Of a DNA stretch of 21,642 nt, positions 1,263 to 21,578 are shown piece by piece. Location: assembly GCA_001460835.1 (NCBI GenBank), contig CYKH01000505.1, forward strand, positions 1 through 21,642. The letters are read 5' to 3'. Source of the stretch: Bodo saltans (taxonomy: Eukaryota; Euglenozoa; Kinetoplastea; Eubodonida; Bodonidae). The notes under the pieces are model-generated. The model searched no databases, was not told the origin of the DNA, and saw only the letters and a program-made list of their open reading frames with translations. A program made the position numbers and the translations under genes. Positions within the stretch are counted from its first letter, which is position 1; the number at the start of each line of letters is the position of its first letter.

Positions 1263-1919
1263 ATGAATGACAAGGAATCGTGTTTTCTACAAATGAATAG
1301 TAGTAGCGGCGAGCACAACAACGTTGGCGGCAACAGTGGTGGTGTCATAGGAGTCGTCCAGGATGCCCTTTACCAATCGGTTCAGTTTGTATTCATCTTG
1401 CAGCAGCCGCAGCGATACTCCCGCGCAGAGCGGTACCGCTCGTGGGTGCACCTGTCTGGGTGGATTCTCAGCTTTACGACTATCGTGTCCTTCTTTTACA
1501 GCACCGTGCTGACGTGGGGGCTTGGCTTATTGTTTCAGCTTCTGGTGGTCGTCGCCGCTTCGTTTTCTCTTTTCGTCCTGCTAGAGTACGAGGATCGCTC
1601 TTCTGACGGCGCAGAGGTAGAACGCCTTACAAAACCGTTACTTCAACTGCAACTTACGACGAGATGGGTGCAGCTCGTCCACATGCTCATGCTCGGCCAA
1701 TGGTGGTTTGCATTGTTCTTCATCTTCCCCCAGATCCCGTTAGATTGGCACCTCGTGTCCAGGCACCTGCTCGTCCCCGATGCCACGACGCTATGGAAAC
1801 AGGTGAAGGGGTTAGACTGGTGGGCTAAGGTGAAGTTAGTGTACCAGGGTATCGTGTTTGTGGTGCAGCTGATCTTGCTGGTCGTCTGCCTTGTATCGTA
1901 CGTTGCTCGAGGGAGTTAG
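1263..1919 (+). CDS. Hypothetical four-helix membrane protein
   Basis: I do not recognise this 218-residue protein. After a hydrophilic Asn/Gly/Ser-rich head (residues 1-30) come four likely membrane segments: about 62-82, 84-107, 135-157 and 194-214. A charged loop (108-134) separates the first and second pairs, and the C-terminus is very short. Aromatic residues are common near the membrane edges. The first ATG is at 1263 and a second in-frame ATG at 1293 (residue 11). If splicing uses AG 1145-1146, the first ATG is available. If it uses the first AG after the pyrimidine run at 1214-1261, which lies at 1272-1273 inside the frame, the protein would start at Met11. No signal peptide or known family motif is evident. 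It is probably an organelle or endomembrane integral protein. Confidence 0.75.
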   Translation: MNDKESCFLQMNSSSGEHNNVGGNSGGVIGVVQDALYQSVQFVFILQQPQRYSRAERYRSWVHLSGWILSFTTIVSFFYSTVLTWGLGLLFQLLVVVAASFSLFVLLEYEDRSSDGAEVERLTKPLLQLQLTTRWVQLVHMLMLGQWWFALFFIFPQIPLDWHLVSRHLLVPDATTLWKQVKGLDWWAKVKLVYQGIVFVVQLILLVVCLVSYVARGS

Positions 1920-10107: not shown

Positions 10108-10632
10108 ATGGCGGACTATGAAGAATACAATGACGAACCTAGGCGACCACGCCCCGTGCCAACAAAGAACAAGAAGTCTGTAGGCCGCGGTGGTGGTGGT
10201 GGTAATGGCGGAAACGGCGGTGCAAACCCCTCACCTCCGGCTGGTGGTCGCGGAAAGGCTGTGCCCCGAGCTCGTGGCGGCGGCGGTGAACAGACAATGA
10301 TTCTCCAACAAGTGGACCTCTCGGAACTCACCACCGAGGAAGCGCTGCAGGACGAGAAGCGCCGCGCTGCTCGCGAGATCGAAGAGGGAGTCCGCGACAT
10401 TAAAGACTGCTACGATGAATTCTCCACGCTTGTCACACATCAACAAGAGGGCATCGACCGAGCCACTAAGAACGTGGAAGTGTCCGTTACCAACGTGCAA
10501 AACGGCACAGAGCAGCTCAAGCAGGCTGGAGAATATCAGAAGTCCTCGCGTAAGCGAATGTGCTGCATTGTCGGTATCCTAGTCGTGGTGATCGCCGTCG
10601 TCGTTGTTGTCATTGTAATCCTCAAGAAGTAA
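10108..10632 (+). CDS. Short Qa-SNARE (syntaxin-like), tail-anchored
   Basis: The product is 174 residues. The SNARE motif runs from about 80 to 145. LVTHQQEGIDRATKNVEVSV aligns with syntaxin-1 LVESQGEMIDRIEYNVE, putting the central-layer Gln at Q112. KQAGEYQKSSRKR matches the basic juxtamembrane KKAVKYQSKARRK of syntaxins. A single membrane anchor follows (about 153-172, almost all Val and Ile) with only two lysines after it, so it is a tail-anchored protein facing the cytosol. Two cysteines (152-153) at the membrane edge could be acylated. In place of the usual three-helix Habc domain, residues 1-62 are disordered and rich in Gly, Pro and Arg. Typical syntaxins have around 300 residues. It should act in vesicle fusion as the Qa partner; the compartment cannot be told from sequence. 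The ATG at 10108 is the first of the frame. Confidence 0.88.
   Translation: MADYEEYNDEPRRPRPVPTKNKKSVGRGGGGGNGGNGGANPSPPAGGRGKAVPRARGGGGEQTMILQQVDLSELTTEEALQDEKRRAAREIEEGVRDIKDCYDEFSTLVTHQQEGIDRATKNVEVSVTNVQNGTEQLKQAGEYQKSSRKRMCCIVGILVVVIAVVVVVIVILKK
10188..10234 (+). repeat. GGT/GGC-rich run coding for a glycine tract
   Basis: GGT codons followed by GGC, GGA and AAT/AAC codons code for a Gly/Asn tract at residues 28-40 of the SNARE protein. The simple codon repetition suggests growth by slippage. It occupies the place where a syntaxin would carry its Habc bundle. Confidence 0.7.
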
Positions 10633-11410: not shown

Positions 11411-12217
11411 ATGACCATATCGAACGAAGGGGATCTTGAAGCCGCCATCAACGCACTATCGGAACGAGTGCGACGTGAAATTGTGCTGGTCGACGCCCAA
11501 ATAGCCAAAAGCCGCGCCGCTCGAGGTTACGTCCCAACCGAAGGTACACCGTCGAAACCAAACAATGGAATTAGTAGTACTCTCGCCAGCCCTTCCGCAG
11601 GAAAGCCTACGAGTCCTGCATCTGTCACGCAAAGCGTTGCGACGGCTGTTGCTCTGGTGGTGGATCAGCAAACCACCACTGCATCTGCTGCATCATCGTC
11701 GTCGCTTGATGCACAACAAAAAGGGGGACCACTGCTCAACTTCGGCCGCACTCGTATGCTTCAATCCTTCAAGCCCTGCTACTTTGTGGTAGACGCCAAC
11801 AAAGGATTTCAATGGTGGGACAGCGCCGAGGCGTTCCGACGCAATCCAACGACTCCAGCAGACTCCATTCCATTCTTTGAAGTTACGTCAAACTCACGTG
11901 CTAGTAAGTTCAAGAAGGCTGTGACGTGCTGGCCCTTAATCCTAACGGAGGATTGTAGCAAAGCAACGGACATCGCTATTTCCTACTTTGCACTTGAATA
12001 CGTGAACCCTAAGGCGAGCAGCAGCGGAAAGACAGAGCTGCTTGTCCTAGGCGCCTCCTCAGAAACGGAGAAGAACGAGTGGGTGACGCACATCACTAAA
12101 TACGTGAAGCTGTTTTTGGCAAATCGAATGGAATCCGAAGCTTTCCTCGAATTCCCTGTTGGAAGCAAGAATCCCACTCACATTTCAGTGGTACTCGATG
12201 GTGAAGCTCCTCGATAG
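11411..12217 (+). CDS. PH-domain-like protein
   Basis: The product is 268 residues. A short N-terminal helix (about 7-36) and a Ser/Thr/Ala-rich linker (41-106) lead to a region from about 107 to 238 that reads as a pleckstrin-homology fold: LQSFKPCYFVVDANKGFQWW as the first strands, FALEYVNP and TELLVLGASS as late strands, then a closing helix ETEKNEWVTHITKYV with the signature Trp at 224. An insert (about 145-185) widens the middle of the domain. I cannot judge lipid binding, as the first-loop basic pattern is not typical. It lies directly before the myosin gene, 225 bases apart on the same strand, so a membrane-adaptor role near the motor is tempting but unproven. The first ATG is used and no membrane segment is present. 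Confidence 0.7.
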   Translation: MTISNEGDLEAAINALSERVRREIVLVDAQIAKSRAARGYVPTEGTPSKPNNGISSTLASPSAGKPTSPASVTQSVATAVALVVDQQTTTASAASSSSLDAQQKGGPLLNFGRTRMLQSFKPCYFVVDANKGFQWWDSAEAFRRNPTTPADSIPFFEVTSNSRASKFKKAVTCWPLILTEDCSKATDIAISYFALEYVNPKASSSGKTELLVLGASSETEKNEWVTHITKYVKLFLANRMESEAFLEFPVGSKNPTHISVVLDGEAPR

Positions 12218-12442: not shown

Positions 12443-15400
12443 ATGGAGCGCCTTTCCATCGGCCAACGGGTGTATTACCCTCACAATCAGCGAGGCTGGT
12501 GTCTCGGCAAGCTTCTCTCTGTGAATACGCTCGAGAAGAAAGCAGAGGTGGAAGATGAAGAAACACGATCGGTGGAGCGGTTGACGCAACAATCGTTGCC
12601 GCTCATTCACGGCTTTATGGAGAATGCATTTGATGCCAGAGATCCGGAGTTGTTCCGAGTCTCTGATCTCCACGTCGCCACTCTCCTGCATTGCGTGAAG
12701 GAACGCTGTGAGAAAATGAAGTTGCAGTATTCCAGAATGGGCGATATGATTCTGTCGATCAACCCATTCCAACCGATGGGCTTCAACTCCGACGAGGAGC
12801 GTGGAAAGTATCTGAGCGCCGCAGATCCGATGCAGCTCGCTCCTCATGTTTGGCAAATCTCACACAAAGCCTTCACACAAATTATTGTGCGAGACCAAGG
12901 AAACCAGTCTGTGGTGATCTCCGGTGAGTCTGGGTCTGGAAAGACCGAGAACACAAAAATGCTCATCAACTACCTCGGTCAGCTGAGCTTCAAGCACAGT
13001 TGCAACGCCGCTCAGCGCCAAGTCGCCACCCAAGTGAGCGACCGCCTCAAGTGGTCCAACCCGATCCTTGAGAGCTTCGGTAACGCAAGAACCGTTCGTA
13101 ACGACAATAGCAGTCGCTTCGGAAAGTACACAAAACTGTTCTTTGACTCCAAGTCCGGCGTGATGGTCGGAGGCGAGATGGTGACGTATCTTTTAGAGAA
13201 AAGTCGCATCATTTACATCGCACCTGGTGAACGCAACTACCACGTGTTCTACGAGATGCTGGCAGGCCTGACTCCGCAGGAAAAGGCAAAGCTTGGTGGT
13301 CTGAAAGATGCCGGCCACTACAAATGTCTCAATCGAGGAGACACCCTCACTCGTCGTGGCGTCGATGGCCGTACTGTGGACGACTCCAAGGAGTTCCAAG
13401 TTCTGACTAAGGCGTTCGGTGAGATGGGTCTGGGGGAGGAGCAGCGCTGGGGTATTTTTAAGACCCTCGCCGCAGTTCTGCACATGCAAGATATCACGTT
13501 TGGCAACGATGACAACGACAAGGCGTGCTTCCAAGATGCTAGCCCCCTCAAGACTGCATGTGACCTCCTCGGTGTGTCGTTTGAAGCCCTCAAGCCTTGT
13601 TTCCTGATCAAATCCACAACAAAGATTATGACATTGCAAGCCACCAAGTCGGAAGCTGAGGGACTTCGCGATGCATTTTGCAAAGCATTGTACGTTGGCC
13701 TCTTTGACCGTCTCGTCGCGGTGGTCAACGAATCCATTCGCCCAGCAGGGGGTGGCAGCGGCTACAAGTACATCGGCGTGTTGGATATTTTCGGTTTTGA
13801 GAACTTTCAAAAGAATAGCTTCGAGCAAATGTGCATCAACTTTGCGAACGAAACGCTGCAAAATCACTACAACAAGTACACATTCCTCAACGACACAGAG
13901 GAATGTCAACAAGAGGGTGTTCAGTGCCCCGATGTTCAGTTCCCGAACAACGCAGCCTGCTTAGAAATGTTCGGGCTTTCCAAGACCGGTATTTTCGCTT
14001 TGCTTGATGAAGAGTGCGGCGTCAAGACTGGCACCTCTCAGAACTACACGACAAACGTTTGGAACATCTGGGGAGGAAAGAACGACTACTTTATTCGACC
14101 CAAGACGACTATTCCAACAGAGTTCGGAATTCGCCACTACGCCAATTTCGTCTCTTACAACACGGAGGAGTGGCTCGAGAAAAATGTGGACTCGCTGAAA
14201 GAAGAAGCCAAGAAAGCTGTTCAAGCAAGCAGTGATCGCTTCATTTCCCAACTGCTTGAAACCATTGAAGCTGTCCCCTCTGACGGGACTCGCCGAGGCC
14301 GTGTGACGGTCGCAAGCAGGTTCCAGAGCCAGCTGCTGTCCCTTCGCGGTGAGCTTGAGTCCACCGAGACACATTTCATCAGATGCGTGAAGCCGAATAT
14401 GTCTGCTCAGCCCGCTGTCATGGACAACTTGTACGTTGGCGGCCAGCTGGAGTCTGCTGGAGTGCTGCAGACCATTGCACTGAAACGACAAGGCTACCCC
14501 GTGCGCCGCCTCTTGCAGTCCTTCTCTGCATTCTTCTACCTGATTGCTCCTCGCCGTGCCGTCAGACTTCACCAGCAGCGCGTCTATGGGGAGGCCGTCA
14601 AGATTATCCTTGAGCATTACAAACAATTTTACAAATCATGGCAGCCCACGCCGAACTACGCGGTTGGTCGCACAAAGGTGTTTATGCGAGGTCACATTTG
14701 GTCAACCTTGGAACGCCTTGTGATCCGCCGCAAGCGGTACCTTTTGAAAAGAGTCATTCCTTACCTCGAGAACTGGGCCCGGCGCTTCCGCAAGAAGAAG
14801 GCTGAGGCTGAGAAGCGGCGACTTGAGCAGCAACGGCAGCTGCAGCAACAAGCGCAGCAACGCGAGCAACAAGCCACACAGAAAGGCGGCATCGATTATC
14901 GTGCCACTGCTCTCAAGTCTGGGCTCAACGAGGTGCAAGCAAACATCTTCGCCGATTTGGTGCAAATATTCCGTAACTTTGACCTTCCTATCATTATGGA
15001 CGTGGTGTTCAACCTCCCCAAGAAAGAGCAAGCCCAAGCTGCGCTAGAGGATATGCAAAATGATCGATTGAATGAAGCGCTGCCTGAGATGCTACGACGT
15101 GTGTTCCAAGACTTGAAGATTCGTAGTGAAGTTGTGGAAGCCCTCGCTGCCAAGGGCGTGGTCTCGATTGCATCATTGGCGCAGCTGTCGCCACAGCAGC
15201 TTCAGGCGCTAGGGATGAGCTCCGAGGAGATTTCAAGGCTCACCGCGTACATGCTCTCCCAGCAGTCAGAGCGCGTGGTGCAGGAACGTCTGCAGGAGCA
15301 AATTGGCACTGGGGGCTCGCTGGAGCAGCTGTTCGGGTCTGGGAGGGGTGCCGTTGGTGTGCCAGATACAGCTGCGCGTCGTGGCTCCACTGCAACGCGC

Positions 15401-15970
15401 GCAGCACCTCCTGCTCAAGCAAATAATGGTCCGTCTGGTGTCCCTTCAAGTCGCCCTGCTGCCCCGTCGTCGGTTCCCGGGGCTCCTTCTATCGACGAAG
15501 GTAGCGTCAATCAGTTAACGCGTATGGGATTCAGCCGAGATGCAGTGGTCGCCGCCCTCACTCGATTCAAAGGCGACGTGACCAACGCTGGACAATATTT
15601 GATGTCGGTTGGCTCGAGCAGCGCAACGAGTGGGGCGCCCAGCTCCCCCAGCGGCGTTGCGCGCAACCAGCAAGCCAACTCAACAACACCGCCTCCAGCA
15701 CAATCTGCAGTCGCGCCGCCGCCTCGTATTGTGCCTCCCCCGAATCGGCCAACGCCGCCAGGTAGCAGCGGAGTTCCTGTGATGGGCGTCGTCGTGTCAG
15801 ACCCTGCCTCACCGCAGAGAACCACAAGTGCCGGCGTGCCGCCTCAAGCGGTTGATGCCAGAAAATTAGACCAACTTGTATCGATGGGTTTTGACCGCGT
15901 GACGGCAACGAACGCTCTGAATGCGTCCAAGGGCGATGTCCAGGGAGCAATCAATCGCCTTCTTCGCTAA
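12443..15970 (+). CDS. Unconventional myosin with two C-terminal UBA domains (kinetoplastid myosin XXI-like)
   Basis: The product is a 1175-residue actin motor. An SH3-like N-terminus (about 5-50) precedes a full motor head: P-loop GESGSGKT (161-168), switch I NDNSSRFGKY (220-229), switch II DIFGFENF (448-455), the actin-binding/SH1 region with FIRCVKPN (645-652), and a converter containing GRTKVF (742-747). All key ATPase residues are present. The neck (about 756-790) is basic with at most one weak IQ motif, then a short Gln/Arg-rich helix. The tail has a helical region (about 800-930), a Pro/Ser linker, UBA-1 (about 1017-1055, with MGFSRDAVVAAL) and UBA-2 (1137-1175, with MGFDRVTATNAL), which ends the protein. 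Myosin XXI of Leishmania and trypanosomes (also classed as XIII in another scheme) is known for such UBA domains and acts in the flagellum and membrane traffic. The UBA domains suggest ubiquitin or cargo binding. Confidence 0.95.
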   Translation: MERLSIGQRVYYPHNQRGWCLGKLLSVNTLEKKAEVEDEETRSVERLTQQSLPLIHGFMENAFDARDPELFRVSDLHVATLLHCVKERCEKMKLQYSRMGDMILSINPFQPMGFNSDEERGKYLSAADPMQLAPHVWQISHKAFTQIIVRDQGNQSVVISGESGSGKTENTKMLINYLGQLSFKHSCNAAQRQVATQVSDRLKWSNPILESFGNARTVRNDNSSRFGKYTKLFFDSKSGVMVGGEMVTYLLEKSRIIYIAPGERNYHVFYEMLAGLTPQEKAKLGGLKDAGHYKCLNRGDTLTRRGVDGRTVDDSKEFQVLTKAFGEMGLGEEQRWGIFKTLAAVLHMQDITFGNDDNDKACFQDASPLKTACDLLGVSFEALKPCFLIKSTTKIMTLQATKSEAEGLRDAFCKALYVGLFDRLVAVVNESIRPAGGGSGYKYIGVLDIFGFENFQKNSFEQMCINFANETLQNHYNKYTFLNDTEECQQEGVQCPDVQFPNNAACLEMFGLSKTGIFALLDEECGVKTGTSQNYTTNVWNIWGGKNDYFIRPKTTIPTEFGIRHYANFVSYNTEEWLEKNVDSLKEEAKKAVQASSDRFISQLLETIEAVPSDGTRRGRVTVASRFQSQLLSLRGELESTETHFIRCVKPNMSAQPAVMDNLYVGGQLESAGVLQTIALKRQGYPVRRLLQSFSAFFYLIAPRRAVRLHQQRVYGEAVKIILEHYKQFYKSWQPTPNYAVGRTKVFMRGHIWSTLERLVIRRKRYLLKRVIPYLENWARRFRKKKAEAEKRRLEQQRQLQQQAQQREQQATQKGGIDYRATALKSGLNEVQANIFADLVQIFRNFDLPIIMDVVFNLPKKEQAQAALEDMQNDRLNEALPEMLRRVFQDLKIRSEVVEALAAKGVVSIASLAQLSPQQLQALGMSSEEISRLTAYMLSQQSERVVQERLQEQIGTGGSLEQLFGSGRGAVGVPDTAARRGSTATRAAPPAQANNGPSGVPSSRPAAPSSVPGAPSIDEGSVNQLTRMGFSRDAVVAALTRFKGDVTNAGQYLMSVGSSSATSGAPSSPSGVARNQQANSTTPPPAQSAVAPPPRIVPPPNRPTPPGSSGVPVMGVVVSDPASPQRTTSAGVPPQAVDARKLDQLVSMGFDRVTATNALNASKGDVQGAINRLLR

Positions 15971-16349
15971 GCACGCGTTGTGTTTTCCCCCATTCTCAAG
16001 AACTGGAAGGGGGGGGCGAGCATTAACTCGGAAGGGGGGGGGTAGTTATAGGATGGAGTACAATTGAAAAACTTCGGCGGTTGCTGTAAGTTTTGTCGAA
16101 GTGGATGCTAGAACCATAGCGAAAGGAGAGAGAGAACGATGCACGACTTGCTGAATTTTGATATCAACCGATTGCAATCTCATTTACAATCTCCTATGCC
16201 GTTTGAGCTACAAAAATTCGTTTTCTTTTTCTTTTTGAATCAAGCGCCTCCGCAGTAAAGTCAACAGAACCAAAGAAGGACAAAAGTACTTGCGTACGTC
16301 CTTAAGTAGCACACAAGTGAGTGTGCGTGAAAGAGAAAAAGAGTGTACG
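15971..16349 (+). promoter_or_regulatory. Spacer with twin G-runs and splice acceptors for the pseudo-cyclase gene
   Basis: Two G-runs (eight and nine G) lie soon after the myosin stop. A pyrimidine run at 16220-16236 is followed by AG at 16243-16244 and again at 16254-16255, giving leaders of about 95-106 bases before the ATG at 16350. The coding frame is open upstream to about 16290, but it has no ATG there. Confidence 0.5.
16004..16042 (+). repeat. Twin GGAA-G(8-9) direct repeat
   Basis: GGAA followed by G reaches eight Gs at 16009-16016 and nine at 16034-16042, 17 bases apart, on the coding strand in the myosin 3' flank. Two long G-runs could form an intermolecular or two-run G-quadruplex in RNA or DNA, or simply reflect homopolymer slippage. 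Confidence 0.7.
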
Positions 16350-19300
16350 ATGAATCTTGACGACAACCGCCCAGCAAGCATTCGCTTGCCAAAAGATGAT
16401 GCCGCCAAACGAAACGGAACAGCCGATTTCTTGCAAAAGACTCCAAGCCATATTCGCATATTTCGAGTGGGTTCTGTGATTGCATCGTTTTACACGGAAA
16501 CGTCGTTGCTAGGTGACCCTGTCACCGCTCAGCAAACGACACCTCACGCTGACCTCTCAGAAAATGAATCTGACGATGACAGCCATGACGCGTCTTCATG
16601 GGAAGGTCCACGCGGGACAGTGACGGAGTTGAGCTCTCTCATTGTAAGCGCAGTGCTTGCTGCGCTACACGGAGGCCACTTGATTGGCAACTCAGTCAAG
16701 CAGTTCTCGATTGTTTGGAGTGCTGCGTCTGTGGCTGCCTACGAGGAGATGAGGAATCGCGGTGAACATGGACGAACGACGCCAGCAACAACGAAGCAGC
16801 AACCTCCAACAAGTTCGGCGAGTACGTTTTCGACGGTGATTCGAGAGACACTCTTGCACCTCGGTTCGGAATTGCTGGAAGGAGATGGCCTGTGGATTCG
16901 TTGTGATGACAATGAAGGATTTCGACTAAAAGTTGCATTGCGGCAGAGCACCGAGCACGATGATGCAATCACTGTCATCATACCGCACGCCGCCAAGTTT
17001 GACGACGAGAAGATGCAGAAGGCGATTGCAGCGACCACCACCTTCCACCTCCTTCCCTCGCAGAATATCTTGTGGAATGCATTTGTGGTTCCAGTGTCGG
17101 TGCAACTCGAGGCGCTGATCGCGTCGACGTTGCAACAATGGGCCCCGTGGACGGTTGACGTCATCCCTGCCAATCATTGTGATATGTGCCCTCCTATCGG
17201 TGACATCGTGGGAGTGACGAAGAGCGACAGCGATCAGGCGCTCGGTGGAGATCAATCACCACCAAACTCAGCGGCATCGTCTTTCGTCAGTGGAATGAAT
17301 CGTGTCATGCCTCGCAGCAACTCCAGCCTGGTCCTGGAAACGCCGAACACTGTTGGCACAAAGTTTTCGATTGCGTCTCCACCAGCGTCTCCTGGAATGT
17401 CGCGAGTACCATCTCGAGCATTTTCCGTTGAGGCGTTGGATATGGGTGATGAGCGAATTCCGCACACGCCGACATCGTCAGTCTTCCGCAACAGAGGGCG
17501 CAATGCGCGGCTCGCTCGCACTGCACTGCGCTGTGAGACGCATGGCTCGTCTGCAGTCGTCATGCTGCGCGTTGAGAGTGATTACACGAAGTTTCTTGAA
17601 TCGCACGTATCGTCACGAGCTGCATCATCGACGACTGCAACAGTTGCAAACTGTCAGACACTCACCGACTTGTATCATCGCCTTTTCCAAGCATCAAACG
17701 CGTCTGTGTGTGAGCACGGTGGAAGCGTCAGTTCCATATCATTTGCCGTTGTCCCTCACTACGCTGAGCAGCAGCAGCAGAACAACAACAACGATTATTT
17801 GAGCGATGAAATTATGGCGGCTCGTGTGACGTTGTGTGTGGAGGTGCTGTGTGTCCTTCCTCGCATCGAACTTTCTCGCGATATTATTCACTTTTCTTCC
17901 ATTTGTGGGGAAGTCGCCGTGTCGCTCGTTGACGCGGCGACCACCACGGTTTCCGACTGGCAACGCACCTCAATCCTCGCAAATCAACAGACTTCGCGTT
18001 CTGCACATTTTCATGTTAGCAGTTGCTTGTTGCAAGGGCGATTGTTACACTCCCCAAGCATCACTGGCAGCAGTCTCGCACACAGAGCTGAAGTCGACCT
18101 TGTGGGTGGGTTTGTGTGTGAACGTGCTCGGTTTCTCTTGGCCTCTGCCAAAGAAGACAACGAGTTTCAAAGAGGTGGTGGTGATGATGATGGTGGTGAG
18201 GTCACATCATCGTGCATTCAAGAGACGCCAAATTCGATGCGGCCTGAAGGACATGTGATGGAAACGACACGGCAACTACCTCCAGCTTATCGTCACCTCT
18301 CGTCGAGTCTGACGAACGTCGTTGATGGTGCCCCACAAGCACTGAGTGAGCAACATCGGCACTTGGCCAGTAGCCTGCTGCAGCTTAAACTCCGCACGAG
18401 CGGTCTCCGAATTTTGGTTGGGGCAGAGCAAGCCTGGAGGGTCGTTGGAAACATGGTTTCTCGTTTGTTGTCTCAGCGGCCAAAGGAGAGGAGCACCGCA
18501 CGTCCCTCTCATGCCGATTCCGCAGCTCAACCCGTTGTGTGTCTGAATACAACGACCACTTCGTCCCTGTGTCTCGTCGTGGGCGAAGCCAAGTGTGGCA
18601 AAACGTCCTTTCTCCTCGATTGTCTCATTCAACTTTCGGTTCTCCCCATCACACTATTTCTCGATGGATCGTGTTGCAGAGGATCTGCATCTGCTGCACG
18701 GCGTTGGAGCGAAGAGAAGCACTCGCCTACGTCGAGTACCTCAGGCATTGCGTGCCCATTAATCATGTTGATGTACCTTGAGCTGAACGAGCGCATCAGT
18801 CAAGCCACCCCCTCTCAGCACAGCGAGGGGTTCGCGAAGGCGTCTTCGCCTTCCGTGGCAGAACTTGTGTTGGCCGTGAAGGCACAGTTTCACTCAATGG
18901 CAACGCAGCGAAAAGTCCTCGTGCTTATTATTGACGACATTCACAAGATGACCCACGACAAGGCAAGCATTTCTATCATTTCCAGTATTGCCAAAGAGTG
19001 CTGTCTTCCACTGGCGGTTATTGCGTCCACCGTCGACACCACATCCATTGCAGGCATCACTGCACAAGTTGATGACGTCGCCACCGCTTACCTCGACGAT
19101 AATCCTCTCCAGGACTGCTGTCGTGTGACCACCCCTTGTGAGGAGGAGGGGCTGACAAATACTTACAAAGTCCTGCGGCAATTCGTGAGCACCACCGTGT
19201 TGGGCGAAGCGCTGCTGGGGTCGAGCTCGGGGGTGGAGGCATTGCCGCTCCGGCGGCTACTTTCCAGTGTTCGCAGAGCCTCTTGCGGGTCGCTGATTGC

Positions 19301-21578
19301 GCTGGCGTCTCTCGGGCACGATCTCAAAGATCGGGCTGATCTCTTGACCCTAACGTCGACTGCACAACAACCGGCGGGTAGCAATGGAATTGGCCTGACT
19401 CCCCAAGAGCAGGACTTCCTTCTCGTCTCCCGGCTCGAGGACCGCCTCGTGGCCGACGTCTCCAATACTTTCCATCATGCTCTGTGCGATCACATCTCAG
19501 TCATGAAGCCGCAAGAAGCGTCATGGCTGGCAGCAGTGGTGTGCTACTGCGCTGCCATGGGAGAGTGGGACTCTGGGATTCCGATGCATGTCGCGATGCT
19601 GTTGTATCGCATATCAAATGCTCCGAAGTACTTGATTGGTGACGAATCGTTGAACTATGAGCCGATTGTGATTTCAGAGAGGTCTGAAAGTGACTCTATG
19701 ACTAACAATAGTTTCTTGATTGAGGCAGATGCAAGTGATGCGCAGAACGACAGCTTCGACAACGTGATCCTCGCACGCCTCTCAGTGAAGTCCCGCGACA
19801 CAGCGGCGTCAGCTGCCGGATTGGCAAGTCTCGTGAGAACCTGCGAAGACGACCCCGCCAAAGTATTTTTGTTGCCGTTTTGTATTCCACGTGTCGTGAT
19901 TCGCTTGATGCGGTCTGATGTGATTGCCGAAAGTTGTCGCCGCCTTGCATCGACGATGGAGTGGTGGTACAGCGGCCTACCCACTCACGCACGCTGCTGG
20001 CTGGCGTGCATGAATGGGGAGATCCCAATTCATGACACTCACCTTGCCGACGATATCCGTGTCACTCTCAACGCTGAAGGAATTGGAAGCAGTCGCATTT
20101 GTAACACCCTACGCCGACATGGTTACAATCATCACCAGAACTCATGCGCAACAGCCGGAAGCAGTGATCAACTGTCACTTCAAGCCCCGCACGGCTTTGG
20201 TCGTGGTTCAGATACTGTTCAGGCCATTGTGGAAGTTGCTGCTCAGAGCGATCGATATGGCGCAGTCTTAGCTGTCCTCGCCGCCTCCAACGGAAATCGC
20301 AGAAAACTTCGCAGAACGGGAAGGTCGGCTGGAGTAGGGCTGGTCACAATCGTCACACGGTTTCACGATATCGACGTAGCACTTGAACAACTGCGGTACG
20401 CATGGCGTGCTGTCGACGACGCAAGCATCAAGCATGCACAACGAATCAGTCACAACAACATACCTCAGCGCAGCGAATCCGCAGATGGGATGCCACCCAC
20501 AACATCATCATTCCGAACCCCTCTGTCTGTCGAAGGTCGGTGGGAGGGTGTTGTTGTTCATGGCAGCCTCTTCGATGCGGAAGAAGTGTCAGTGCAAGCA
20601 GTGATGAACGAAGTCGGCGAAAGCAAAGCTCGCCTGAGAGCAGTTTGGGAGATCTGCAAAAGTTTGTCAACGTTCATGGAACAGCACCCTCTCGCTGCCG
20701 ACCCATACGACCCGCCACTGCGTGCTGCCGTGTTAGAGGTGGACCGGTGCGTTTTGCAAGCAACCGGTGCTGACGGTGCAGAGACACTGGCCTCAGGCAT
20801 TGGTGACTGGCAGGTTTCTCTCCAAACTCTCTGTGAAACCCTTGCGATACGATGCAAAGACCTAAGTAGCAGAATGTGCAGCATCCTGTCCGACATCGAT
20901 CTACGTCGCATTCGTACAAAGCTCGAGGCCTCTGTCAAGTGCACCGTTTTGCGAACAGCGCTCGCTGACATCGTATCGACACTCGCCGACGTGAACCAAG
21001 TCCGAAGAAAATTGGAGAGCACCGACACGTCGAAGACAGCACAGGCTCAGCAGCTTGAAGGGGTGATCGCAGCTAAAGTTCACAACATCCGTCAGAAGCT
21101 GATCAGCGTCGTTCTCCTCGCCTCATCAGTCGCGCGGATGTCCCAGACCTTGTCAAGCGGAGGGCATCGTCACGTCGACGTTGTGATGCATCAAGCAACT
21201 TCACCAACTTCAGCAGAACGCATCCACGACCGCTTCATGACGGAAGTCACTCAGAGGTACATCTCGTCAGTCAGCTCACTTGCTGACCATGTCCACTCTT
21301 CTCGAGCAGCTCTGGTGCAAGACTTTCTTACGCTGACAATCTCGTTTGTCACGACATTCGCCGCGGTGACGATCGACACATGCGTCGCTAAGCGCGTGTC
21401 AGAAGCAGTTGGGGATGTTTCTCCATGCAATCTTGAGACTTGCACTGTCACCCAAGAAGCCAATGGTTGGTCGATATCTGTAGAGAAATCAGTTGTCGCC
21501 CAAGAGCAATCAGCAGCAGCAGCAAAGCCCTCACTCATCAGCAGCACGGGTAGGTGGCAACGAAAAGGTGCGAAATGA
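16350..21578 (+). CDS. Soluble-adenylyl-cyclase-like protein: two degenerate cyclase domains plus STAND ATPase
   Basis: The product is 1742 residues from the first ATG. Two regions show the spacing of class III cyclase domains without their catalytic residues. Domain 1 has IFRVGSVIASF (37-47) and HGGHLIGNSVKQFSIVW (107-123). Domain 2 has MLRVESDYTKF (405-415) and HGGSVSSISFAVVPHY (456-471), with a later CGEVAVSLV like the family HTGEV. In both, the first metal Asp is Val (40 and 408). The second is Lys117 in domain 1 and Ala466 in domain 2. A linker with VGAEQAWRVVGNMVSRLL (690 on, family VGRExE) leads to a STAND/AAA_16 ATPase with Walker A GEAKCGKT (745-752) and Walker B LIIDDIH (D862, D863). 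The rest (about 1000-1742) is helical and unrecognised. The order and length match mammalian ADCY10. I infer an ATPase signalling scaffold with dead cyclase domains. The ATPase call is firm; the cyclase ancestry is inferred from aligned patterns. Confidence 0.75.
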   Translation: MNLDDNRPASIRLPKDDAAKRNGTADFLQKTPSHIRIFRVGSVIASFYTETSLLGDPVTAQQTTPHADLSENESDDDSHDASSWEGPRGTVTELSSLIVSAVLAALHGGHLIGNSVKQFSIVWSAASVAAYEEMRNRGEHGRTTPATTKQQPPTSSASTFSTVIRETLLHLGSELLEGDGLWIRCDDNEGFRLKVALRQSTEHDDAITVIIPHAAKFDDEKMQKAIAATTTFHLLPSQNILWNAFVVPVSVQLEALIASTLQQWAPWTVDVIPANHCDMCPPIGDIVGVTKSDSDQALGGDQSPPNSAASSFVSGMNRVMPRSNSSLVLETPNTVGTKFSIASPPASPGMSRVPSRAFSVEALDMGDERIPHTPTSSVFRNRGRNARLARTALRCETHGSSAVVMLRVESDYTKFLESHVSSRAASSTTATVANCQTLTDLYHRLFQASNASVCEHGGSVSSISFAVVPHYAEQQQQNNNNDYLSDEIMAARVTLCVEVLCVLPRIELSRDIIHFSSICGEVAVSLVDAATTTVSDWQRTSILANQQTSRSAHFHVSSCLLQGRLLHSPSITGSSLAHRAEVDLVGGFVCERARFLLASAKEDNEFQRGGGDDDGGEVTSSCIQETPNSMRPEGHVMETTRQLPPAYRHLSSSLTNVVDGAPQALSEQHRHLASSLLQLKLRTSGLRILVGAEQAWRVVGNMVSRLLSQRPKERSTARPSHADSAAQPVVCLNTTTTSSLCLVVGEAKCGKTSFLLDCLIQLSVLPITLFLDGSCCRGSASAARRWSEEKHSPTSSTSGIACPLIMLMYLELNERISQATPSQHSEGFAKASSPSVAELVLAVKAQFHSMATQRKVLVLIIDDIHKMTHDKASISIISSIAKECCLPLAVIASTVDTTSIAGITAQVDDVATAYLDDNPLQDCCRVTTPCEEEGLTNTYKVLRQFVSTTVLGEALLGSSSGVEALPLRRLLSSVRRASCGSLIALASLGHDLKDRADLLTLTSTAQQPAGSNGIGLTPQEQDFLLVSRLEDRLVADVSNTFHHALCDHISVMKPQEASWLAAVVCYCAAMGEWDSGIPMHVAMLLYRISNAPKYLIGDESLNYEPIVISERSESDSMTNNSFLIEADASDAQNDSFDNVILARLSVKSRDTAASAAGLASLVRTCEDDPAKVFLLPFCIPRVVIRLMRSDVIAESCRRLASTMEWWYSGLPTHARCWLACMNGEIPIHDTHLADDIRVTLNAEGIGSSRICNTLRRHGYNHHQNSCATAGSSDQLSLQAPHGFGRGSDTVQAIVEVAAQSDRYGAVLAVLAASNGNRRKLRRTGRSAGVGLVTIVTRFHDIDVALEQLRYAWRAVDDASIKHAQRISHNNIPQRSESADGMPPTTSSFRTPLSVEGRWEGVVVHGSLFDAEEVSVQAVMNEVGESKARLRAVWEICKSLSTFMEQHPLAADPYDPPLRAAVLEVDRCVLQATGADGAETLASGIGDWQVSLQTLCETLAIRCKDLSSRMCSILSDIDLRRIRTKLEASVKCTVLRTALADIVSTLADVNQVRRKLESTDTSKTAQAQQLEGVIAAKVHNIRQKLISVVLLASSVARMSQTLSSGGHRHVDVVMHQATSPTSAERIHDRFMTEVTQRYISSVSSLADHVHSSRAALVQDFLTLTISFVTTFAAVTIDTCVAKRVSEAVGDVSPCNLETCTVTQEANGWSISVEKSVVAQEQSAAAAKPSLISSTGRWQRKGAK

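Follow-up and report, generated by a model that had tools for sequence, protein, structure and literature searches.

The Locus and Its Neighbouring Genes

The window, by which we mean the whole stretch of Bodo saltans DNA that was analysed (21,642 nucleotides), carries close to its right-hand end an intact open reading frame, P0001, encoding a protein of 1742 amino acids, which is the subject of this report and whose parts are listed in Table 1. The frame opens with an ATG at 16350, runs through 1742 codons without an internal stop and closes with a TGA at 21576–21578. TAA, TAG and TGA are all in use as stops across the window, and the genetic code is therefore standard. The GC contents at the first, second and third codon positions are 0.58, 0.48 and 0.55, respectively, a base composition which resembles that of the neighbouring genes. 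Upstream of the ATG, a pyrimidine-rich tract followed by AG would represent the expected trans-splice acceptor.

The identified neighbours are all eukaryotic in kind, intronless and located on one strand. They comprise a myosin (Myosin_head, 4.7e-172) whose tail carries two UBA domains, a SNARE (9.2e-14), a cornichon-like protein (8.5e-8) and a weakly matched PH-domain protein (0.0018). The combination of a myosin with two UBA domains is presumably that of the kinetoplastid class XXI myosins, and the cornichon-like, SNARE and PH-domain genes, judged by their predicted products, form a small membrane-traffic group beside it. Such a gene arrangement, taken with the pyrimidine tract and AG ahead of the ATG, would suit a genome of kinetoplastid type, to which the myosin is the strongest pointer. 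In addition, a frame of 1199 codons, for which no Pfam match above cut-off was obtained, includes a stretch rich in Cys and His, CKQLCKKPHHCFKPEHMCGSTCHPNHDHRQCTFACRAQLPCGHVC, which is reminiscent of NFX1-type zinc-finger repeats, and a coiled-coil-like protein of 1157 residues starts with a zinc-ribbon-like CxxC pair, CSNCSTLTMMDRCPKCGG.

Table 1. Genes of the window and known or proposed parts of the 1742-residue protein (positions are those of the window; residues are those of the protein).
Feature	Position	Strand	Remark
Cornichon-like protein	1263–1919	+	
Coiled-coil-like protein, 1157 residues	2282–5755	+	
Open reading frame, 1199 residues	6199–9798	+	
SNARE	10108–10632	+	
Weak PH-domain protein	11411–12217	+	
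Myosin with two UBA domains	12443–15970	+	
Pyrimidine-rich tract, then AG	16218–16244	+	Upstream of the ATG; sequence read directly
P0001, 1742 residues	16350–21578	+	Intact; standard code; no transmembrane-like segment
Candidate domain 1, residues 30–275	16437–17174	+	First of the proposed cyclase-homology domains; contains two low-complexity inserts; without statistical support
FRV, residues 38–40	16461–16469	+	Proposed first metal site of candidate domain 1
HGG block and K117, residues 107–117	16668–16700	+	Proposed second metal site of candidate domain 1
Polar low-complexity linker, residues 285–394	17202–17531	+	By accident a decoy within the second AlphaFold run
Candidate domain 2, residues 395–612	17532–18185	+	Second of the proposed cyclase-homology domains; a single profile match, local and weak (residues 438–464)
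HGG block to A466, residues 456–466	17715–17747	+	Proposed second metal site of candidate domain 2
HEATR5A-type HEAT-repeat match, residues 489–549	17814–17996	+	Below Pfam cut-off
Probable STAND/AAA-type P-loop ATPase, about residues 691–1110	18420–19679	+	Weak AAA_22, AAA_16, ATPase_2 and NPHP3_N matches
Walker A, GEAKCGKT, residues 745–752	18582–18605	+	Sequence motif
Walker B, LIIDD, residues 859–863	18924–18938	+	Placed by hhalign on the Walker B of bacterial sAC ATPases
C-terminal region, residues 1111–1742	19680–21575	+	Long stretches without Pro and Gly

The Protein and Its Probable P-Loop ATPase

A 19-residue Kyte–Doolittle scan of the protein found no transmembrane-like segment, the maximum (1.95) lying in the segment that follows Walker A and the other peaks reaching about 1.8 or less. 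The C-terminal region appears to be helical in character, and matched neither a Pfam family above cut-off nor TPR repeats. No relatives of the protein were found in IMG/VR or in 84,980 prokaryote genomes; IMG/VR likewise gave no match when queried with myosin and with human soluble adenylyl cyclase (sAC, ADCY10).

In the middle of the protein, about residues 691–1110 very probably form a STAND/AAA-type ATPase, as judged by the Walker A motif, the Walker B motif ending in D862–D863, and the Pfam matches of the region. When residues 691–917 were searched alone, all six matches reported were P-loop ATPases, headed by AAA_22 (2.9e-4), AAA_16 (1.8e-3) and ATPase_2 (6.8e-3), all of them below the curated cut-offs. 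The likeness to STAND-type P-loop ATPases of the AAA_22/AAA_16 kind (Leipe, Koonin and Aravind 2004, cited in PMC12802110) lies in both Walker motifs and in the ranking of the Pfam matches, whereas the scores themselves set the protein apart. In hhalign, residues 853–892 fall exactly on the Walker B stretch of the ATPases of bacterial sAC relatives (P 0.03), with a score that was matched by one of 100 shuffles and by six of 130 real decoys, among which there may be other ATPases.

A further reading takes the gene to be a pseudogene in decay, or its model to be wrong, so that no working protein would be made. The search results given above favour such an explanation to the extent that a gene for which no relatives are found allows no estimate of selection. 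Nevertheless, a frame of this length without a stop and with a neighbour-like base composition, together with Walker motifs that remain intact well downstream of the part presumed to be dead, makes decay or misannotation very improbable.

Sequence Tests of the Proposed Cyclase Domains

Eukaryotic sAC is defined by two catalytic domains, the lack of a membrane segment and a P-loop NTPase (PMC6660944), which in the human protein are arranged in the order cyclase, cyclase, ATPase and tail (PMC12802110, PMC6660944). Like ADCY10 (human, PDB 4CLF and others), the B. saltans protein is soluble, of similar length, and possesses a central P-loop STAND-type ATPase as well as a long C-terminal part, and it may also share tandem cyclase-homology domains in front; unlike ADCY10, it shows no significant C1 or C2 match and, in the register of the original prediction, lacks the C1 residues Asp47 and Asp99. 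The original prediction had assigned it a soluble-adenylyl-cyclase-like plan, of which the ATPase behind the N-terminal half, the absence of a membrane segment and the overall length are borne out, while the cyclase fold is not.

The letters on which the two cyclase domains had been proposed are present, namely FRV at residues 38–40 and HGG at 107–109 in candidate domain 1, and LRV at 406–408 and HGG at 456–458 in candidate domain 2, and the residues named for the metal positions (V40, K117, V408 and A466) were read from the translation exactly as predicted. HGG occurs twice in the protein against 0.15 expected occurrences. The spaced motif [FL]RV-x(40-75)-HGG, which was picked post hoc and whose [FL]RV part is no cyclase motif, is found twice in the N-terminal 640 residues and at least once in seven of 5000 shuffles of the same stretch. 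Compared with ADCY10, the linker separating the two HGG blocks has about 108 additional residues.

Direct searches gave no support for the assignment of both regions to the class III cyclases, which is not established by Pfam, NCBIfam, PDB, HMMER, global alignment or pairwise comparison with ADCY10, all of which were negative. With E limits of 1 for the whole protein and 10 for its segments, no match to Guanylate_cyc (PF00211, curated cut-off 21.9 bits) was reported, and phmmer against the PDB returned nothing relevant. A full-length profile of the bacterial sAC proteins scored 0.1 bits in HMMER, below two shuffles, and profile-global alignment with our own Viterbi code gave Z values of −0.9 to 1.1, no better than shuffles. 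Pairwise alignment of the human C1 and C2 domains with the candidate domains gave Z below 0.2, and the two candidate domains aligned with one another at Z about 0.15, compared with 6.6 for human C1 against C2. Likenesses noted by eye, for example that of GPRGTVTEL in domain 1 to the RGAEEL signature of sAC and that of VIIPHAAKFDDEKMQ to the strand-helix around R176, failed shuffle tests and were discarded.

A broad cyclase profile of 65 sequences, consisting of bacterial C1 and C2, 31 further cyclase domains and the human sequence, was also scanned along all 1742 residues in 256-residue windows. The top spot was candidate domain 2 (21.8) and the next was candidate domain 1 (14.8), windows overlapping neither scoring about 8–12. 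The local match in domain 2 (residues 438–464) has a score reached by none of 100 shuffles and by only one of 229 unrelated real segments, whereas that in domain 1 (residues 106–125) was reached by nine of 100 shuffles and 41 of the 229 real segments and is not significant; HGG accounts for the greater part of both matches. The sum of both halves (35.8) was reached by none of 60 long unrelated open reading frames. Masking HGG lowered the domain 2 score from 21.1 to a non-significant 12.1, with the best alignment staying at the same residues, and scrambling the helix before HGG lowered it to about 14; the signal therefore consists of two short elements, a helix and a GG turn, which offer weak evidence for a cyclase, at a site that had been chosen by HGG, the very motif that carries most of the profile score. 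In addition, a weak HEATR5A-type HEAT-repeat match (E 0.0017 for the segment alone) overlaps domain 2 and competes with the cyclase reading.

These results are central to an alternative in which a STAND/AAA-type ATPase is preceded by 640 unrelated residues that evolve fast and are partly disordered, FRV, LRV and HGG being coincidental. The negative outcome of every direct search, the chance-level score of domain 1, the low-complexity inserts in which the region is rich, the choice of the site by the highest-scoring motif and the failure of AlphaFold to give anything (see below) all fit this alternative. Against it, the two best cyclase-profile spots stand in the right order before the right kind of ATPase, and domain 2 and the summed halves outscore nearly all and all of their real comparison sequences, respectively. 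An unrelated front half accordingly strikes us as somewhat less than an even prospect.

Structure Prediction

AlphaFold modelled domain 2 alone with a pLDDT of 32, and Foldseek returned no matches for it. With its elements in the order strand-helix-helix-strand-strand-strand, this model fits a cyclase only loosely. In a second job, to which 20 bacterial sAC rows were supplied, MAFFT had happened to align the C2 columns of the bacteria with the linker at residues 285–394, which then folded in a cyclase-like manner with a pLDDT of 45–81, compared with 26–55 for domain 1; the first strand of domain 1, whose FADIS and GG columns had been placed as the original prediction has them, was drawn as a helix. 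Since a disordered linker outscores domain 1 when bacterial rows are present, the model is circular and reflects the rows supplied. It was therefore rejected as evidence for a cyclase, as were its Foldseek matches to sAC (E about 0.01–0.04), which were mixed with unrelated ferredoxin-like folds.

Taken together, profile and structure searches detected no cyclase fold in either region, which is formally the outcome that the original prediction had named as speaking against it; these tests are weak because the collections scanned contain no relatives of the protein.

Bacterial Tandem Cyclases and the Proposed Metal Sites

For comparison, a consensus of bacterial tandem cyclases, used as bait only, drew 80 loci (L001–L080) from species genomes, mostly of Chloroflexota, with some of Verrucomicrobiota and others. 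A profile of this set retrieves human ADCY10 from the PDB at 1.3e-45, with a match that extends over both C1 and C2, and the loci are thus true relatives of sAC; in Pfam, they show Guanylate_cyc, AAA_16 and TPR. The plan is greatly expanded in Chloroflexota, as the Ardenticatenales isolate MGR_bin47 contains at least six separate tandem-cyclase-plus-ATPase loci (L006, L007, L015, L020, L023 and L069) and the Oscillochloris bin KT5_bin-278 at least five. The B. saltans protein resembles these proteins in its proposed domain order and in its AAA_16-type ATPase, but the C1 residues Asp47, Asp99 and Lys144, which are invariant in all 64 aligned relatives, and the strong matches to Guanylate_cyc, AAA_16 and TPR are missing or weak here.

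At the proposed domain 1 positions of Asp47 and Asp99 stand V40 and K117, and neither Asp nor Glu occurs within residues 27–49 and 100–131, the surroundings of both proposed metal sites. Because no acidic residue lies near either site, domain 1, if cyclase-derived, would certainly be dead, whatever the exact register. The second domain calls for a different judgement. sAC has a single active site, situated between C1 and C2 (PMC12802110), and the first of the metal aspartates is as a rule absent from its C2, the position being occupied by Arg in 47 and Lys in eight of the 64 bacterial relatives and by N298 in human, not unlike the LRV of domain 2 here; hence only domain 1 bears on deadness. 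The proposal that both domains look dead amounts to one loss that counts: it stands for domain 1, on condition of cyclase ancestry, and is overstated for domain 2, since a C2 without metal ligands is normal in the sAC family.

Could the protein nonetheless be an active or partly active cyclase, whose true metal ligands lie elsewhere and were missed through a wrong register? E409 and D411 lie near what would be the first strand of domain 2, and in the absence of any significant alignment the register is uncertain. However, with the acidic residues absent from both stretches of domain 1, even a shift of several residues would restore neither metal site, and the invariance of both C1 aspartates and of K144 in all 64 bacterial relatives leaves little room for such a solution, which we judge to be highly unlikely.

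It had further been suggested that the protein may keep bicarbonate sensing. Bicarbonate control of sAC is reported to be a mammalian feature, and its residues are usually not conserved outside mammals (PMC12867704), with which the bacterial set agrees: K95 and R176 are mostly replaced by Gly, Ser or Asn and by Ala, respectively, in the 64 relatives, despite an intact metal site. In the register of the original prediction the equivalent of K95 is G113 and that of the base-recognising K334 of human C2 is S462, so that none of D47, D99, K95 and K334 of ADCY10 is found at its equivalent position; lacking a reliable alignment, the equivalents of K334, T405, N412 and R416, as well as of R176, cannot be placed. 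Bicarbonate sensing by the B. saltans protein is therefore unlikely. K334 is mostly Gln in the bacterial relatives, and these patterns suggest that neither the bicarbonate sensing nor the ATP specificity of human sAC is ancestral to the tandem plan.

A Possible STAND Switch with a Decayed Cyclase Module

The reading that we prefer, at nearly even chances, is that of an eroded sAC plan, in which a STAND-type signalling ATPase retains a decayed tandem cyclase module as a non-catalytic scaffold. It is favoured by the proposed order of cyclase, cyclase, ATPase and tail, which is that of human sAC and its bacterial relatives, and by the fact that the bacterial tandem cyclases also have AAA_16 as their ATPase. 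The fuller version, namely that the entire sAC architecture is kept while the catalytic residues of the cyclase pair are lost, so that the protein would be a STAND switch with a pseudo-cyclase module and produce no cAMP, is put forward slightly more tentatively, as somewhat less likely than not.

According to the eroded plan, two cyclase-homology domains would be followed by a P-loop ATPase and a long tail in a large, soluble protein. Binding of ATP at K751 and T752 and its hydrolysis, aided by D862 and D863, would toggle the protein between a closed and an open state. A signal or partner may be received by the C-terminal region, and the N-terminal pair, which would produce no cAMP, may contribute to folding, dimerisation or output. 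The analysis shows the intact frame, the Walker motifs with their weak STAND/AAA profile matches and the lack of acidic residues at the candidate metal sites of domain 1, whereas descent from a cyclase, the switching mechanism and the functions of the two ends are what we infer. In either leading reading, the Walker motifs and the family indicate that a STAND switch driven by ATP is most likely the part that does the work, the C-terminal region then being most likely the site of sensing or partner binding and the N-terminal half a module for output or assembly.

The original prediction had regarded a soluble-type cyclase relative as new for kinetoplastids; that novelty does not hold as worded, since HemAC-Lm of Leishmania is already known as a soluble adenylate cyclase, though of the globin-coupled type (PMC4534343). 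HemAC-Lm shares with the present protein solubility, kinetoplastid origin and, if the ancestry proposed here is correct, the cyclase family, and differs from it in being globin-coupled, oxygen-sensing and active (PMC4534343). A search of open-licence papers brought up no description of a kinetoplastid protein of the sAC type. HemAC-Lm itself we take not to follow the plan of tandem cyclases plus STAND ATPase.

If the front half were not derived from a cyclase, the gene would be of ordinary interest, encoding one more STAND ATPase of kinetoplastids that has yet to be characterised. What the ATPase and the tail do in full-length sAC is not understood, and the purified protein revealed no regulator acting through them (PMC12802110). 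Should the B. saltans protein indeed have kept the ATPase and lost the cyclase, the ATPase and tail would have a job of their own, and this protein would provide a clean system in which to find it.
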